DNA of 34,065 nt from Deltaproteobacteria bacterium (lineage in GTDB: Bacteria; Myxococcota_A; Polyangia; Polyangiales; Houyiibacteriaceae), in the NCBI GenBank assembly GCA_013151775.1, contig JAADHO010000416.1, forward strand, positions 1-34,065, in the 5' to 3' direction. Made by a program: the position numbers and the translations under genes. Positions within the stretch are counted from its first letter, which is position 1; each line of letters begins with the position of its first letter. The notes beneath the pieces were generated by a model that had not been told where the DNA came from, did no database searches, and saw only the letters and a program-made list of their open reading frames with translations. Shown here piece by piece: positions 3,200 through 21,562 of this stretch.

Positions 3200-4651
3200 C
3201 TACGGATCATCCGACGCTTCTTCCAGCGCGTCGATCCGAAGCCGCATTAGCGTATCGACGCAGCACTGATCATGGACAGCCCACACACTGTCCCATGGTG
3301 CGCTCTGAGGAGCAATCGCAAGTATCTCTGAATTCGTGATACTGATAGGACTTGGTGCGCCAAAATCGAACTCACCTTGTCGCGAGGGTGGAGGGAGATC
3401 GTATGCGAGATGACGTCCGTCTCGCAGATCCCATACGTTGAGAGCGTGATAGCTGCAATCGTCGCGTCTGAAGGGACAAGCTCCCTGTTGTGCGTAGAAG
3501 TCCCCGCCACTAAACGAATCCATACTGCTGCTCTCGAGATCCACTAATTTGTGTAGATTGACAGGCGCTCCTTCCCTCGTAGTGTCGCCAGTCCAGAGTT
3601 CGTAGCGCCCCCATCGGGGAGGCCATTCGTCTGGCCGACCGGGCCTACGTGGAGGCAGCAGGTCGTAGGCCTCGACCCAGGTAAAATGGGAAGGTGTGAT
3701 CGACACGCCGATCACATCGGCATCCGGTGCGCCTAAGTTGATGTACGATGAGCTCCCGAAGATGTTCCCGTGTGTGAGGTAGATATGCGGCTGAGGCTCG
3801 GTGCGAAGACCTCCAAAGTAGTCCATAAAGGCATCACTATTTTGCCAGTATATATCGTTATCATTCAATGAAAAAATTCTGCCAGTCGGAAAGTCTTCTG
3901 TGCCATCCAATGCAAGGATACGGTCACTGCTCATAAACGCGAACCTGTCCGTCGCCGTGTTTACGACCGTCCACTGACCGGACACGTGGATGTTAGCTGT
4001 TGACCACTCGTATGGATTCCATGCTTCGCCGAGTGTTTGAATTGGCCGAGTCACATTTCGGATGTTCTCGAGTGGAGCGCGGAAAATGTACTCCCGATAG
4101 GCTGTGGTCTCGTTGCCAACGCCGAGGGCGAACGCGACGTCGCCGTCTCCATACGCCATGCTCACGATCTGGCACAACTCGTTGTGGGTTCGCCGACTTG
4201 GGAATCGCCAGGCGGCGATAGGGGAGCCTTTCGTGCGGGATATGAGCAGCGTAACGAAGGCATCCGAGGTGTTCACCTCGGACATGACGAAGTAGGTCTC
4301 TCCCCGATGTGTCCAGGCACTTCGCCAGGAGAAGGACCAGTACTTGTCGGGCGGCGGAAGAGCCAGGTGTTGGCAGCTCGCGCCGCAGTCCGGTTCCGTG
4401 ATCCACACGGGTGTGAAGAGCCCCTCGGGGTGCTCCGCCCGCTCGACGACACAGCCTTGGGGCAGCCCCGGCATGGGGATCCAGTGGGGGTCCTCCGTGG
4501 GTTGCGGTTCCGGACGCGCATCCAGGGTGGCATCCACGCCAGCGTCGCCCGGAGTCGATTCGGGCGAGGGCGACCCACAGGCGCCCAGCGTGGCCGAAAT
4601 CACGATGGCGACGAGTCGTAGACCTGGCGGCAGGGCACTCGGCGACGCCAT
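3200..4651 (-). CDS. Putative secreted lipoprotein, unknown function, lower-GC gene
   Basis: I do not recognise a family. I chose the ATG at 4651 (483 aa) rather than the upstream ATG at 4726, because the former begins a clean lipoprotein signal (MASPSALPPGLRLVAIVISA then lipobox TLGAC) while the latter sits inside a perfect hairpin. After the lipobox comes an Asp/Ala/Pro-rich tether, then a beta-rich body with many Trp, Tyr and Asn residues and several cysteines (PDCGASCQH, GACPFRRDDCS, HDQCCVD), suggesting disulfides in an extracytoplasmic domain. It could be a beta-propeller-like surface protein, but no repeat register is clear. The DNA is noticeably richer in A/T than its neighbours, for example around 3840-3900, which hints at a different origin. 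It is convergent with the amidohydrolase, with a 71-bp gap. Confidence 0.72.
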   Translation of the reverse strand: MASPSALPPGLRLVAIVISATLGACGSPSPESTPGDAGVDATLDARPEPQPTEDPHWIPMPGLPQGCVVERAEHPEGLFTPVWITEPDCGASCQHLALPPPDKYWSFSWRSAWTHRGETYFVMSEVNTSDAFVTLLISRTKGSPIAAWRFPSRRTHNELCQIVSMAYGDGDVAFALGVGNETTAYREYIFRAPLENIRNVTRPIQTLGEAWNPYEWSTANIHVSGQWTVVNTATDRFAFMSSDRILALDGTEDFPTGRIFSLNDNDIYWQNSDAFMDYFGGLRTEPQPHIYLTHGNIFGSSSYINLGAPDADVIGVSITPSHFTWVEAYDLLPPRRPGRPDEWPPRWGRYELWTGDTTREGAPVNLHKLVDLESSSMDSFSGGDFYAQQGACPFRRDDCSYHALNVWDLRDGRHLAYDLPPPSRQGEFDFGAPSPISITNSEILAIAPQSAPWDSVWAVHDQCCVDTLMRLRIDALEEASDDP

Positions 4652-16683: not shown

Positions 16684-18147
16684 TCAGCTTGCCCGCTGCA
16701 CGTGCTTCTTGACCGTCCGGCGGTCGAGCCCGGTGATGCGTGCGACGCGTTCGTAGGTCCCGTGGCGTTGATAGAGCTGTGTGCAGTAGTTGGCGAGCAG
16801 CTGCTTTGCGTCGATCTCCTGTGCGCCCAAGGCGGTCCAGACGCTGGCAGGGCTCGGTGACGCGGGTGTCGAGGCGTCGGGTCCACAGCGCCGAGTGAGC
16901 AGCACGCGTCGGACACATTGCTCCAGCTCCCGCACGTTGCCCGGCCAAGCGTAGTCTGGGCCCACGCCCTCGAGGATGGCTCGCTGCAGCTCGAGGACCA
17001 GCTCGGAGCTCGACTCTCCGACGAGACGCGGGACGATCACGCGAAGCAGCGCTTGGAGTTCGGAGGGCTCCTGTGCGAGGCGCGTGCGCAGCGGCGGCAC
17101 GTGGATCACGTCCGAGCACAGGCGGTAGTAGAAGTCGTGGCGTAGACGGCCTTCTTCGCGAAGCGTCTGGAGGGAGCGATGGGTCGCCGCCACGACACGG
17201 CCTTCGAAGCGGCGGGTCTCCCGGCTCCCGACGGGCGTGTAGGCGCGATCTTGCAGGACGCGTAGCAGCTTCACCTGCACGGGGATGGACACCTCACCGA
17301 TCTCGTCGAGGAAGACGACGCCGTGGGAGTTGACGCGAGCGAGGGCGCCGTCGTGGTGGGAGGTGGCTCCGGTGAACGCGCCCTTCTTGTGACCGAAGAG
17401 CTCGGACTCGATCAGGCTCTCGGGGAACTCGCTGAGGTTCAGCGGCACGAAGCTCGAGACGAAGCTCTCCTTGAAGTGAGCACCCTTTCGCGCGAAGGGG
17501 ATGAAGCCCGAGCGACCGATGGCGGAGGCCGCGGCGCCTTTGCCGGTGCCGGTCTCGCCCAGCAAGATCGTCGAGAAGTCCTCCATGCGATCCCAGAGCA
17601 GGCGCTCGTAGCGCTCGAGATCGTGCCCGAAGACGTTGTTCCAGAGGCTCTCCCGTAGCTCGCGCATGCAGGCGCTAGGACCGACGAGCGCTGTGCCGAT
17701 GAAGCGGAACGCGCGGCGCATCTGAAAAAAGACCTCGATGGCTCGGCGTCGGCGGTCTTCGGAGAAGCCCCAGACCGCGAGGTCGGCTTCGAGGCTTTCG
17801 GCGAAGCGCAGCGGCCGAGGTTCAGCGCCAGCCTGGAGCTGCTCTTCGATGTGTAGGTCGAAGGCCTCCGCGTAGCGGTGGAAGACATGAAACCAGCCGG
17901 CGTGCTCCAGCAGCCGCCGATCATCGCCGGTGAAGTCTCGGATATCGAGTCGCGCTTCCTCGTTGATGGCCGCCAGGCGCGCTTCCAGTTTCGTCAGCAG
18001 CAGCTCGAGCAGCTCCTCGGGCTGCGGGTCGCCGCCTGCGATCCGTCGGTCGAGCTCGTCCCGCTCGCGTCCAAAAGGGTTGGCGAAGGCCGCCTCGCTG
18101 ACGAGCGCGAAGAAGTCTCGATCGGATGTCTGAAGTGAACGACTCAT
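16684..18147 (-). CDS. Sigma-54-dependent enhancer-binding transcriptional activator
   Basis: AAA+ activator of RNA polymerase-sigma-54, 487 aa. The Walker A motif GETGTGKG is at residues 197-204, the sigma-54-contact loop GAFTGA at 256-261 (intact), and Walker B VVFLDEIGE at about 277-285. The C-terminal HTH is GTYERVARITGLDRRTVKKH in a Fis-like position. The N-terminal 190 residues are helical, rich in Arg/Glu, with no recognisable receiver, GAF, PAS or FHA domain, so the input signal is unknown. The gene diverges from the LplT-PlsC gene, and the 250-bp gap contains repeated dyads and a -24/-12 promoter pointing at that gene, so this protein is the obvious candidate activator. No strong promoter of its own is visible; TATAGT (minus strand, 18153-18158) is a possible -10. 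Confidence 0.92.
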   Translation of the reverse strand: MSRSLQTSDRDFFALVSEAAFANPFGRERDELDRRIAGGDPQPEELLELLLTKLEARLAAINEEARLDIRDFTGDDRRLLEHAGWFHVFHRYAEAFDLHIEEQLQAGAEPRPLRFAESLEADLAVWGFSEDRRRRAIEVFFQMRRAFRFIGTALVGPSACMRELRESLWNNVFGHDLERYERLLWDRMEDFSTILLGETGTGKGAAASAIGRSGFIPFARKGAHFKESFVSSFVPLNLSEFPESLIESELFGHKKGAFTGATSHHDGALARVNSHGVVFLDEIGEVSIPVQVKLLRVLQDRAYTPVGSRETRRFEGRVVAATHRSLQTLREEGRLRHDFYYRLCSDVIHVPPLRTRLAQEPSELQALLRVIVPRLVGESSSELVLELQRAILEGVGPDYAWPGNVRELEQCVRRVLLTRRCGPDASTPASPSPASVWTALGAQEIDAKQLLANYCTQLYQRHGTYERVARITGLDRRTVKKHVQRAS

Positions 18148-18220
18148 GCCCGACTATACATTTTTCGTACATCCCGTGCGCAATATATGCTCGGCCAGCG
18201 TTCAGTCGCGACAACTCCCA

Positions 18221-18244
18221 AAATGATCCTGGAAGCTTTCGGGA
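18221..18244. repeat. Upstream dyad element, copy 1 (candidate activator site)
   Basis: A 24-bp element centred on AAGCTT (18233-18238). It matches copy 2 at 21 of 24 positions. It contains the imperfect dyad TCCTGGAAGCTTTCGGGA, in which 7 of 9 half-site positions are symmetric. It lies about 160 bp upstream of the predicted sigma-54 start, a usual distance for an enhancer site. Confidence 0.6.
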
Positions 18245-18251
18245 ATACTCG

Positions 18252-18303
18252 GATCATATGTGCATTATGTGTACTTCATGTATTCAATAAATGTCATGTG
18301 ATC
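18252..18303. repeat. Inverted repeat in AT-rich spacer
   Basis: GATCATATG (18252-18260) and CATGTGATC (18295-18303) are inverted repeats matching at 8 of 9 positions. They bound an AT-rich core between the two copies of the dyad element. The core could be a flexible or protein-bent stretch; no specific factor is identified. Confidence 0.35.
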
Positions 18304-18315
18304 GCGCGGCATCCG

Positions 18316-18339
18316 AAATGACCCTGGAAGCTTTTGGGG
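18316..18339. repeat. Upstream dyad element, copy 2 (candidate activator site)
   Basis: Second copy of the 24-bp element, core AAGCTT at 18328-18333. Its centre is 95 bp from copy 1, close to nine helical turns, so both copies would face the same side of DNA. A third partial copy, GAAGCTTC (18339-18346), follows 12 bp later. It lies about 70 bp upstream of the predicted transcription start. Confidence 0.6.
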
Positions 18340-18371
18340 AAGCTTCGGCGAAAAACGTGCTGGAAGGCTGC

Positions 18372-18387
18372 TGGCACGACTTTCGCT
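18372..18387 (+). promoter_or_regulatory. Candidate sigma-54 (-24/-12) promoter
   Basis: TGGCACGACTTTCGCT matches the consensus TGGCACG-N4-TTGCW with one mismatch. The invariant GG and GC dinucleotides are separated by the required 10 bases. Transcription would start near 18398, which leaves almost no leader before the ATG at 18400. That is unusual and the main reason for caution. Confidence 0.55.
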
Positions 18388-18399
18388 CCGGTTTGGGGC

Positions 18400-20253
18400 A
18401 TGCTGACGCTTCTACGCTCTCGTCGCTTCGCGCCGCTCTTCTTCACGCAGCTCCTCGGGGCGCTGAATGACAATCTCTTCAAGAGCGCGCTGGTCATCAC
18501 GCTGACGTTCGGCGTGACCGCGCGCACGGAGGTCTCCCTCGACGCGCTGGTGAACATGAGTTCGGCGCTCTTGATCCTGCCCTTCTTCCTCTTCAGCGCT
18601 TTGGCGGGGCAGCTCGCCGACAACTTCGACAAGGCGTGGCTGACGCGCACGCTCAAGCGCGTGGAGTTCGGCGTGATGCTCCTCGCCGTGCTCGGCTTTC
18701 AGCTGAACAGTCTGCCTCTGCTCTTCGCGGCCCTCTTCATGATGGGCACTCAGTCCGCCTTCTTCGGTCCCGTGAAGTACGCGATCTTGCCGCAGCATCT
18801 CCACGTCGACGAGCTGGTCGCTGGCAACGGCTTGGTCGAGATGGGCACCTTCACGGCCATCCTGGCGGGCACCATCCTCGGCGGTCTGGTGGTCGCCATC
18901 CCCGGCATCGGCACCACGCTGCTCTCGGCCTCGCTCCTGCTCGTCGCCGTCTCCGGCTACGTCGTGAGTCGCGCCATGCCCGCCGCCCCGCCGACCACTC
19001 GGCGCGCGCTCGACTGGAATCTGCTCCGCTCCACGCGCGACACCTTGCGTCTGGCCCGACGCGACCGAGGCATCTGGCTCTCGATCCTCGGCGCCTCCTG
19101 GTTCTGGTTCGTCGGCGCGCTGCTGCTGGCTCAGTTCCCCGTGTTCACGCGAGAGGTGCTGAACGGCGACGAGTATGTGGTGACCGCGCTGCTCGCGATC
19201 TTCTCCGTTGGCATCGGTCTCGGCAGCGTCGCCTGCGAGAAGCTCACCTCGGGGCGCATCGACGTTGCGATCGTACCCGTGGCGGGCGCACTGATGGTCG
19301 CCGCGCTGCTCGACCTCGCCCTTGGATCCGCATCCCGCGCCGTGCCCGTGGACGCCATCGGTCCCCTCGCCATGCCTCCGCGTGTCGCCCTCGACCTGCT
19401 GCTCCTCGGCGCCTCGGGCGGCCTCTTCATCGTCCCGCTCTACGCCGTGATGCAGCACCGCGCCAAGCCTGATGAGCGCTCGCGGGTGATCGCCGCGAAC
19501 AACATCGTCAACGCTCTCTTCATGGTGGTAGCGGCGCTCTTCGCTGTGCTCGTGCGTGCAGCCGGTGCGTCCATCCCGACTCTCTTCCTGATCACCGCGC
19601 TCCTCCACGCCCTCGTCGTGCTCTTCGTCGCGGCGCAGGTGCACCGACGCCTGCTGCGCCTGGTGATGGGCCGCGTGATTCGCACGCTCTATCGCGTCCG
19701 AGCCCGCGGTCTCGAGCATCTGCCCGAGGAAGGCGGCGCTCTGGTCGTGGCCAATCACGTCAGCTTCGTCGACGCTCTGATCCTCGGCGGACTCGCCCAC
19801 CGGCCCATCCGCTTCGTGATGTACCACCGCTTCTTCACGATCCCTGGGACGCGCTGGTTCTGGCGGCTCGCGGGCGCCATCCCCATCGCGCCTCGTCGCG
19901 AGGACGCTGCCATGATGGAGCGCGCCTTCGAGTCCATCGATCGCGCCCTCGCTGACGGCGACGTGGTGGGCATCTTCCCCGAAGGTAAGCTGACCACGGA
20001 TGGCAAGATCGACGACTTCCGTCCAGGCATCGAGCGCATCCTCGCGCGTCGCGCCGTCCCCGTGGTGCCCATCGCCCTGTGTGGTCTTTGGGGCAGCTTC
20101 TTCAGCCACGCGGGCGGCAAGCCCATGAGCACGCGCCCGAGGCGCTTCTGGTCGCGCGTGGAGGTCGTCTGCGGTGAGCCCGTCGACGCACGGCACGCGA
20201 GCGCCGAAGAAATCCGAGAACGCGTGCTCGCCCTACGGGGTGATCTGCCCTGA
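18400..20253 (+). CDS. Fused LplT-like MFS transporter and PlsC-like acyltransferase
   Basis: Inner-membrane protein of 617 aa combining a lysophospholipid-flippase-like MFS domain (about residues 1-420, roughly 12 hydrophobic segments, starting [20 protein letters not shown]) with a glycerophospholipid acyltransferase domain (about 430-617). The latter has the catalytic HX4D motif in NHVSFVDA (19753-19776) and the substrate motif FPEGKLT near 19975. In E. coli, LplT and Aas form a lysophospholipid repair pathway, and many bacteria have a three-part fusion ending in an acyl-ACP synthetase. Here that third domain is missing. I use ATG 18400 since residues upstream of it (frame open from 18334) run through the repeats and promoter. 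Probable role: uptake and reacylation of lysophospholipids, under sigma-54 control. Confidence 0.88.
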
Positions 20254-20265
20254 CTCCGCCCCGAC

Positions 20266-21562
20266 TCAGCGACGACCCGCGCCGGGGCGTCCGCCTCGCC
20301 CGCCGCTTCCGCCTCGTCTGCTTCGTCCCGGACCACGTCCGCGTCCGGGGCGTCCACGTCCACCACCGCCACCTCCGCCTGCGGGCTTCCGTACGTGGCT
20401 GTGTCCGTGCAGATCCGTGGGCCTTGGCGGCTCCTGGCTCGGCGGGTACGGGTGGTCGACGACGCGCTCGATGTGGGCCTCGAGCAGGCGCTCGATGTCC
20501 ACGAGGTAGGGTCGCTCCTCCGACTCGCAGAAGGAGAGGGCGATGCCCGAGGCGCCGGCCCGTGCCGTCCGGCCGATGCGATGTACGTAGGTCTCGGGCA
20601 CGTTCGGGAGGTCGAAGTTGATCACGTGGCTGATGCCCTCCACGTCGATGCCGCGGGCCGCGATATCGGTGGCCACGAGCACGTTGATGGCGCCGGAGCG
20701 GAAGCCGTCGAGGGCGCGTGTGCGCGCGCCTTGGCTCTTGTTTCCGTGGATCGCGGCGGCGTGGATGCCCGCCTGATCGAGCTGCTTCACCACGCGGTTG
20801 GCGCCGTGCTTCGTGCGCGTGAAGACCAAGGTGTGCACCACCTCCTCCTTGCGCAGGAGATCCACCAAGAGGCGGCGCTTGTCGCCCTTGTCGACGAAGT
20901 AGATCTGCTGCGTGACCTTCTCTGCGGCAGAGGACACGGGCGCGACCGCGACGCTGACGGGGTTGTCGAGCAGCTCCTCCGAGAGCTTGCGGATCGGCGG
21001 CGGCATGGTGGCCGAGAAGAAGAGCGTCTGGCGCTTCTTCCAGCTTGGCGATCACGCGGCGCACGTCCGGGAGGAAGCCCATGTCGAGCATCCGGTCGGC
21101 TTCGTCGAGCACGAAGACCTCCACGTCGCTCAGGTCGACATAGCCTCGGTTCATCAGGTCGAGTAGGCGCCCCGGCGTGGCCACCAAGACGTCGATGCCG
21201 CGCTCGAGCTCGGCGATCTGCTTGCCCTCCTTCACGCCGCCGAAGATCACCGTATGCCACAGGTCGAGGTGCTTCCCGTAGGTCCTGAAGCTGTCGCCGA
21301 TCTGCGCTGCGAGCTCGCGCGTCGGAGTGAGCACGAGGGCGCGGATCGTCACCTCCTTGCCCGCCGAGGCGTCTACGCGCTGCAGCAGCGGCAGCCCGAA
21401 AGCGGCGGTCTTGCCGGTGCCTGTCTGGGCGCAGCCGAGGATGTCTCGGCCCTTCAGCGCGTGCGGGATCGCCTCGCATTGGATCGGTGTGGGAACCGTG
21501 TAGCCGGTCTCGGCTACGGCCTTGCGCACGGGCGCACTCAATTCGAAATCGTCGAAAGTCAC
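20266..21562 (-). pseudogene. RhlE-like DEAD-box RNA helicase interrupted by a frameshift
   Basis: ATP-dependent RNA helicase of the RhlE type, split over two frames. From GTG 21562: Q-motif ([21 protein letters not shown]), motif [24 protein letters not shown] and DEAD motif [13 protein letters not shown]. The frame is then lost near 21034-21042. The other frame continues with [11 protein letters not shown] (motif III), [33 protein letters not shown] and [10 protein letters not shown], then a Gly/Arg-rich tail ([14 protein letters not shown] type) for RNA contact. A one-base insertion or two-base deletion in the sequence read CTGGAAGAAGCG on the minus strand explains it. All motifs survive on both sides, about 430 aa in total, so the change is recent or a sequencing error. 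No canonical slippery site is seen. Confidence 0.85.

Follow-up and report, generated by a model that had tools for sequence, protein, structure and literature searches.

A divergent sigma-54 activator as the probable regulator of an LplT-PlsC fusion: a candidate membrane-maintenance circuit in Polyangiales

The control of lysophospholipid repair in bacteria is poorly understood. At the locus considered here, a gene for an LplT-type transporter fused to a PlsC-type acyltransferase lies back to back with the gene for a sigma-54 activator, raising the question of whether the two form a regulatory circuit, through which sites it would act and what it would respond to. The locus is part of a stretch of 34,065 nucleotides from a deltaproteobacterial assembly (Houyiibacteriaceae), which we refer to as the window. 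The original prediction, made from the DNA sequence, had described the two genes as divergent and separated by about 250 bp, and this description holds: both reading frames are intact and the intergenic gap measures 252 bp. The genes and their domains are as follows.

16684-18147, minus strand: gene for the activator, 487 aa, with a helical N-terminal domain, an AAA+ sigma-54 interaction domain and a C-terminal helix-turn-helix (HTH)
17593-18147, minus strand: all-helical N-terminal domain, residues 1-185, a putative sensor (AlphaFold, alignment)
17365-17382, minus strand: GAFTGA sigma-54 contact motif, residues 256-261 (family alignment)
16690-16809, minus strand: C-terminal HTH, residues about 447-486, with an invariant DRRT (alignment; helices in the predicted model)
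18400-20253, plus strand: LplT-type MFS transporter fused to a PlsC-type acyltransferase, 617 aa (Pfam, NCBIfam, motifs)
about 19693-20079, plus strand: acyltransferase domain within the fusion

Residues 190-344 of the activator match PF00158 (Sigma54_activat) in Pfam with 147.5 bits (cut-off 20.2), the AAA+ domain expected of sigma-54 enhancer-binding proteins (bEBPs). Its GAFTGA loop is nearly invariant across the family alignment, the HTH is of the Fis type, and the genome carries rpoN in single copy (one Sigma54_DBD protein was found). By domain score, GAFTGA motif, rpoN and the -24/-12 element of its target, the protein is classed as a sigma-54 enhancer-binding protein, and ATP-dependent activation is predicted. 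RtcR and NtrC, which share the combination of AAA+ domain and HTH, rank high among the NCBIfam matches to the AAA+ domain. The RtcR match (174.9 bits, cut-off 650) covers residues 193-416 only and the NtrC match reaches 167.9 bits (cut-off 558.6). Neither a CARF nor a receiver (Response_reg) domain was detected in the N-terminus, and the protein is neither an RtcR nor an NtrC-type response regulator.

The N-terminal domain had resisted naming in the original prediction, and comparisons with Pfam, PDB sequences and structures gave no clear relative either. The AF2 model is all-helical (pLDDT 92.8) and the family alignment displays invariant NPF..R and Q..R motifs. Pfam yielded no family match and the PDB sequences nothing with an E value below 0.06; the best Foldseek match to PDB structures had an E value of 0.5, and the best VIA match (Z 4.7, rmsd 3.4 over 77 residues) was unconvincing, none of which is proof of a new fold. 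Judged by its position only, the domain is likely to be the signal input of the bEBP.

The divergent gene product matches MFS_1 and Acyltransferase in Pfam, and the acyltransferase motifs NHVSFVD and FPEG (consensus NHx4D and FPEG) are intact, as expected of an LplT-PlsC fusion. The nearest NCBIfam models are acyl-ACP--phospholipid O-acyltransferase and LplT, both scoring under their full-length cut-offs, as is to be expected of a protein lacking the acyl-ACP synthetase part. The protein thus resembles LplT-Aas, which likewise pairs an MFS lysophospholipid flippase with an acyltransferase, but it is shorter, lacks the acyl-ACP synthetase domain and stands under the putative sigma-54/bEBP circuit. 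Fused LplT-acyltransferase forms have been noted in the literature but are uncharacterised (PMC11416262). Lysophospholipid is the putative substrate for transport and acylation.

The gap between the two start codons contains the following elements.

18155-18182, no strand: candidate operator array 1, TATAC-CGTAC-GTGCG at 11-bp spacing, adjoining the bEBP start codon
18218-18243, no strand: dyad 1 (CCTGGAAGCTTTCGGG core), a genome-specific repeat
18259-18286, no strand: candidate operator array 2, TGTGC-TGTAC-TGTAT at 11-bp spacing
18313-18338, no strand: dyad 2, 95 bp downstream of dyad 1
18349-18374: degenerate third repeat copy
18372-18387, plus strand: -24/-12 sigma-54 promoter TGGCACGACTTTCGCT, 14/15, with a predicted transcription start at about 18398

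To be more than a local coincidence, the arrangement should recur in related genomes, where the original prediction had proposed to look for it. Among 145 sampled genomes of the order, 37 others each carry one bEBP match at E<=1e-60, and the complete orthologs are 36-58% identical over most of their length, N-terminal domain included. The divergent bEBP/LplT-PlsC pair was found in eight further genomes (L011, L038, L041, L042, L044, L045, L048 and L050) with bEBP identity as low as 38%; a ninth (L046) retains just the acyltransferase half beside the bEBP. In another genome (G037) the two genes are set apart by an inserted segment that contains a 2'-5' RNA ligase-like reading frame, and promoter and array remain on the LplT-PlsC side of it. 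LplT-PlsC co-occurs with the bEBP in 18 of 27 genomes versus 20 of 118 (p=8e-7, with related genomes counted as independent).

Full-length relatives of the bEBP extend well beyond the order, to Desulfobacterota, Beta- and Gammaproteobacteria, Verrucomicrobiota, Kiritimatiellota, Planctomycetota, Acidobacteriota and others. Their divergent partners include LplT and PlsC as separate genes (Desulfocapsa MAG, L183), a fusion of LplT, PlsC and acyl-synthetase (Pedosphaera MAG, L188) and genes for a PspA-like and a DUF2157-like protein (Methylococcaceae MAG, L186). Several relatives have VIT/vWA-type proteins and a rhomboid-like protein as partners, assigned by reading the sequences rather than by family search, and at two loci (L179, L182) the partners have no obvious lipid link. 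Many of the gaps in these other phyla, though not every one, score above shuffled sequence for array (combined p 9e-6) and promoter (combined p 2e-8). The partner labels are clustered beyond all shuffles on the bEBP tree, where LplT as divergent partner requires at least five label changes and PspA between two and three. A small recurring set of membrane genes thus appears to have been joined to the bEBP repeatedly, with gains and losses indistinguishable on the tree.

Within the order, too, the regulon seems to reach past LplT-PlsC. The divergent gene of genus g2 encodes a PspA_IM30 protein (37.4 bits, cut-off 33.9) and is followed by a gene for a DUF2157-like membrane protein. YiaAB is the divergent partner in four genomes (G012, G030, G129, G139), and a sigma-54 promoter precedes each of the 11 YiaAB genes tested in bEBP genomes, whether or not they are linked to the bEBP, in most cases together with an array. 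YiaAB scores above its family cut-off in 14 of the 145 genomes, 13 of which have the bEBP (Fisher p=5e-8, related genomes counted as independent). In the remaining one (G126), the C-terminal part of the bEBP runs antisense into codon 8 of YiaAB, a relic shared by both genes of a divergent pair that were truncated together, apparently in one deletion. No YiaAB gene was found in the genome of the window. DUF2339 genes have a sigma-54 site in four of ten bEBP genomes, three with a clear array, and arrays in trans also lie near PilZ and NosD-like genes. Ordinary PspA paralogues were rejected as targets: among 28 scored in bEBP genomes, two had a promoter of at least 12 and none an array of at least 11. 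The PspA genes in the genome of the window have no such sigma-54 promoter, and none adjoins the bEBP. Sigma-54 control of lysophospholipid repair, which the original prediction had called unusual, is supported in part: LplT-PlsC probably comes under the circuit, but the circuit is not specific to such repair, as relatives drive PspA-like, YiaAB, DUF2339 and VIT/vWA genes.

This spread of targets bears on the signal. The bEBP may control these promoters and yet sense a non-membrane cue such as carbon, growth phase or development, the membrane genes being downstream products. An N-terminal domain without known relative in Pfam and PDB comparisons, the VIT/vWA-rhomboid partners and the arrays in trans near PilZ and NosD-like genes would all fit such a cue; the partners that recur and were joined independently are nevertheless membrane genes, namely PspA-like, LplT-PlsC and YiaAB, and we regard a non-membrane cue as a serious though minority possibility. 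The membrane partners point instead to membrane or lysolipid stress as the signal. Taking this further, the N-terminal domain could be a cytoplasmic sensor of membrane lipid damage (a lysophospholipid or a bilayer property) in a one-component sigma-54 lipid-damage response that repeatedly recruited LplT-PlsC, PspA-like and YiaAB genes across phyla, an extension that we put forward as speculative and rather doubtful.

As to the sites of action, arrays of TGTAC half-sites at 11-bp spacing, overlooked in the original prediction, lie on either side of dyad 1. The better of the two window arrays, array 2, has p=0.0005 against shuffles of the gap, and both are degenerate nonetheless. When periods from 6 to 17 bp were scored in the target gaps, 19 gaps reached at least 12/15 at 11 bp and between none and two at any other. 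The array distinguishes targets from controls with p about 1e-9, a significance overstated by counting related genomes as independent, and an array score of 11 is reached in only seven of the 12 LplT-PlsC gaps. The arrays of genus g2 are almost perfect (e.g. TGTACATTCAGTGTACACGCGATGTACA, 15/15); they directly adjoin the bEBP start codon, and TGGCACGCTCCCTGCT-like promoters and an AGGAGG leader come next. In several genomes (L032-L035) the bEBP adjoins unrelated genes and no array is present. The trivial explanation that TGTAC pairs flood the genome was ruled out by 54 matches compared with 97 in a reversed control. Because array and bEBP co-occur and DRRT is invariant in the HTH, the 11-bp TGTAC array is a conserved candidate operator of the bEBP, and its position against the bEBP start codon makes autoregulation likely.

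The dyads had been singled out earlier as the activator's sites. Two dyads with centres 95 bp apart are indeed present, as 26-nt repeats that are 88% identical. It could be argued that the bEBP acts here through these 24-26-bp dyads while the TGTAC arrays belong to another regulator: the dyads are situated between bEBP and promoter with a spacing of about nine turns, and dyad pairs recur in this genome at C290, 95 bp apart and alongside TGTAC arrays, and at C48, 106 bp apart, where another 14/15 sigma-54 site precedes a DUF2339 membrane protein gene. Against this, CCTGGAAGCTTYNG occurs 14 times in this genome (0 in the reversed control), and five relatives that share the DRRT HTH of the bEBP have 0-1 copies. 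Seven of the copies are at the window gap, C48 and C290, while the remaining half are not near any array, and orthologous gaps share arrays, not dyads. We therefore reject the dyads as a conserved operator, contrary to the expectation that they would be conserved in orthologous gaps, and consider action through them unlikely; they are a genome-specific element, possibly with an auxiliary role.

The arrays would serve the -24/-12 element, which was found as originally described, at its position and with one mismatch and exact GG-N10-GC spacing. TGGCACGACTTTCGCT is the only site of at least 14/15 on either strand of the window and has p=0.0015 against 2000 dinucleotide shuffles of the gap. The A of the LplT-PlsC ATG follows the C of the -12 GC by 14 nt, giving a predicted leader of about 2 nt and hence an mRNA predicted to be nearly leaderless, unlike the PspA-like and YiaAB targets, whose leaders mostly have a Shine-Dalgarno sequence. 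Taking the best GG-N10-GC site within 160 nt upstream, a site of at least 12/15 is present in 12 of 12 LplT-PlsC upstream regions of this type in bEBP-bearing genomes, ten of them with an identical promoter-to-ATG distance, and in none of eight control LplT-PlsC genes, from genomes without bEBP or of another subtype. For targets versus controls as scored also for the array, the promoter gives p about 1e-10, again overstated in that related genomes were counted as independent. The promoter thus passes the test of conservation in orthologous gaps. Since three genomes (G002, G024, G054) keep the promoter at LplT-PlsC with the bEBP located elsewhere, it cannot be put down to the divergent layout, and LplT-PlsC homologues of the other subtype in bEBP genomes (L088, L091, L097, L099) do not have it. 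It is this retention in trans and the absence in controls, rather than the p-values, on which the case rests. That the layout is incidental, with LplT-PlsC transcribed from an ordinary promoter and the -24/-12 match due to chance, as the one mismatch and the 19 matches of at least 12/15 in the window might suggest, is hardly credible given the control genes, the fixed position and the trans cases.

Taken together, bEBP control of LplT-PlsC is well supported by comparative evidence. Of the local circuit initially proposed, divergent pair and promoter stand, conserved also where the bEBP is unlinked, and the dyads as its sites do not. We consider it quite probable that the locus is a one-component, PspF-like sigma-54 circuit for membrane maintenance, in which the bEBP acts via the TGTAC array on the LplT-PlsC promoter. 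In the stretch from its start codon to the divergent gene, the bEBP would bind TGTAC half-sites that recur with every helical turn (11 bp), and its GAFTGA-bearing AAA+ ring would remodel E-sigma-54 at the -24/-12 element to yield the nearly leaderless LplT-PlsC mRNA. The fusion protein would then flip lysophospholipid inward and re-acylate it. Through the array at its own start codon the bEBP would regulate itself. The helical N-terminal domain, present instead of a receiver, FHA or CARF domain, would control the AAA+ ring, with membrane stress, lysolipid stress or a partner protein as the trigger.

One of the nearest known counterparts is PspF/pspABC of Escherichia coli, where a bEBP is likewise divergent from a sigma-54-dependent membrane-protection operon. 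PspF, however, lacks an N-terminal domain and is kept in check by PspA, whereas the bEBP described here has a helical domain of 185 aa, a putative operator in the form of a TGTAC array with 11-bp spacing, and varied partners including LplT-PlsC and YiaAB. It scores 144.4 bits against the PspF equivalog TIGR02974 (cut-off 443.55), and a divergent pspA-like gene is found in genus g2, L065 and L186 but not in the window; in these three the PspA-like and DUF2157-like partners resemble Psp/Lia systems (PMC11237479, PMC9239133). The bEBP would work like PspF and yet, by score and N-terminal domain, fall outside the PspF family.

In the literature searched, subscription papers being outside its scope, there was no direct precedent for a sigma-54 link to LplT, lysophospholipid or YiaAB. 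The circuit is in line with a published proposal that the cell exterior is under sigma-54 control (PMC3162934). Comparative genomics has defined the bEBP family, its candidate operator, its promoter and its regulon, and these extend the Psp idea of a divergent bEBP and membrane effector to a new regulator with exchangeable effectors. They also open a way into YiaAB and DUF2339, two families of membrane proteins that have received little study. As judged from genome comparisons, the bEBP circuit looks like an unrecognised membrane-maintenance switch.

The dyad CCTGGAAGCTTYNG, first noticed as a pair in the gap between the sigma-54 activator (bEBP) and LplT-PlsC genes, has undergone a 14-fold expansion that is confined to this genome. 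The copies frequently occur as pairs spaced by 95, 106 or 39-40 bp, and the dyad is possibly a REP-like or auxiliary element:

window 18218-18243 and 18313-18338, dyads
C290:4822/4917/4957, dyads
C48:18361/18467, dyads
C203:9793/9832, dyads

A second sigma-54 site in the same genome, accompanied by two dyads and weak arrays, was located on contig C48, and the short segment immediately 3' of this promoter is similar to the LplT-PlsC start. No good sigma-54 site was found at three further array loci of this genome (L131-L133):

L130:2493-2508 (C48), sigma-54 site TGGCACGAGTTTCGCT, 14/15, upstream of the DUF2339 gene
L130:2631-5804 (C48), DUF2339 membrane protein gene
L131 about 2230-2280 (C345), 11-bp TGTAC array near a PilZ-domain gene
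L132 about 3350-3520 (C290), 11-bp TGTAC array near a BcrAD_BadFG ATPase gene
L133 about 2530-2570 (C236), 11-bp TGTAC array near a NosD-like gene

In G039 (L258; G039:C539), LplT-PlsC and the membrane gene YiaAB are divergent on one contig and their common gap contains a TGTAC array and TGGCACGGACGCTGCA. In G076, the nearest relative, of the same genus and 81% complete, neither LplT-PlsC nor bEBP was detected at the thresholds used. In the single-contig genome G126 (13.6 Mb), YiaAB codon 8 is fused antisense to bEBP residues 398-485 (L257:1262-1656). A single deletion appears to have eliminated the gap together with the start of YiaAB and most of bEBP, so that the two genes survive as one shared relic.

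An RhlE-like helicase in the window (20102-21562 and 20266-21006, minus strand) is split, with its DEAD half in one reading frame and its Helicase_C half in another, which is a frameshift or assembly error.

Because the spacing from promoter to LplT-PlsC (window 18386-18400) is kept in the orthologs, the mRNA from the sigma-54 promoter is predicted to be almost leaderless, unlike those of the PspA-like and most YiaAB targets.
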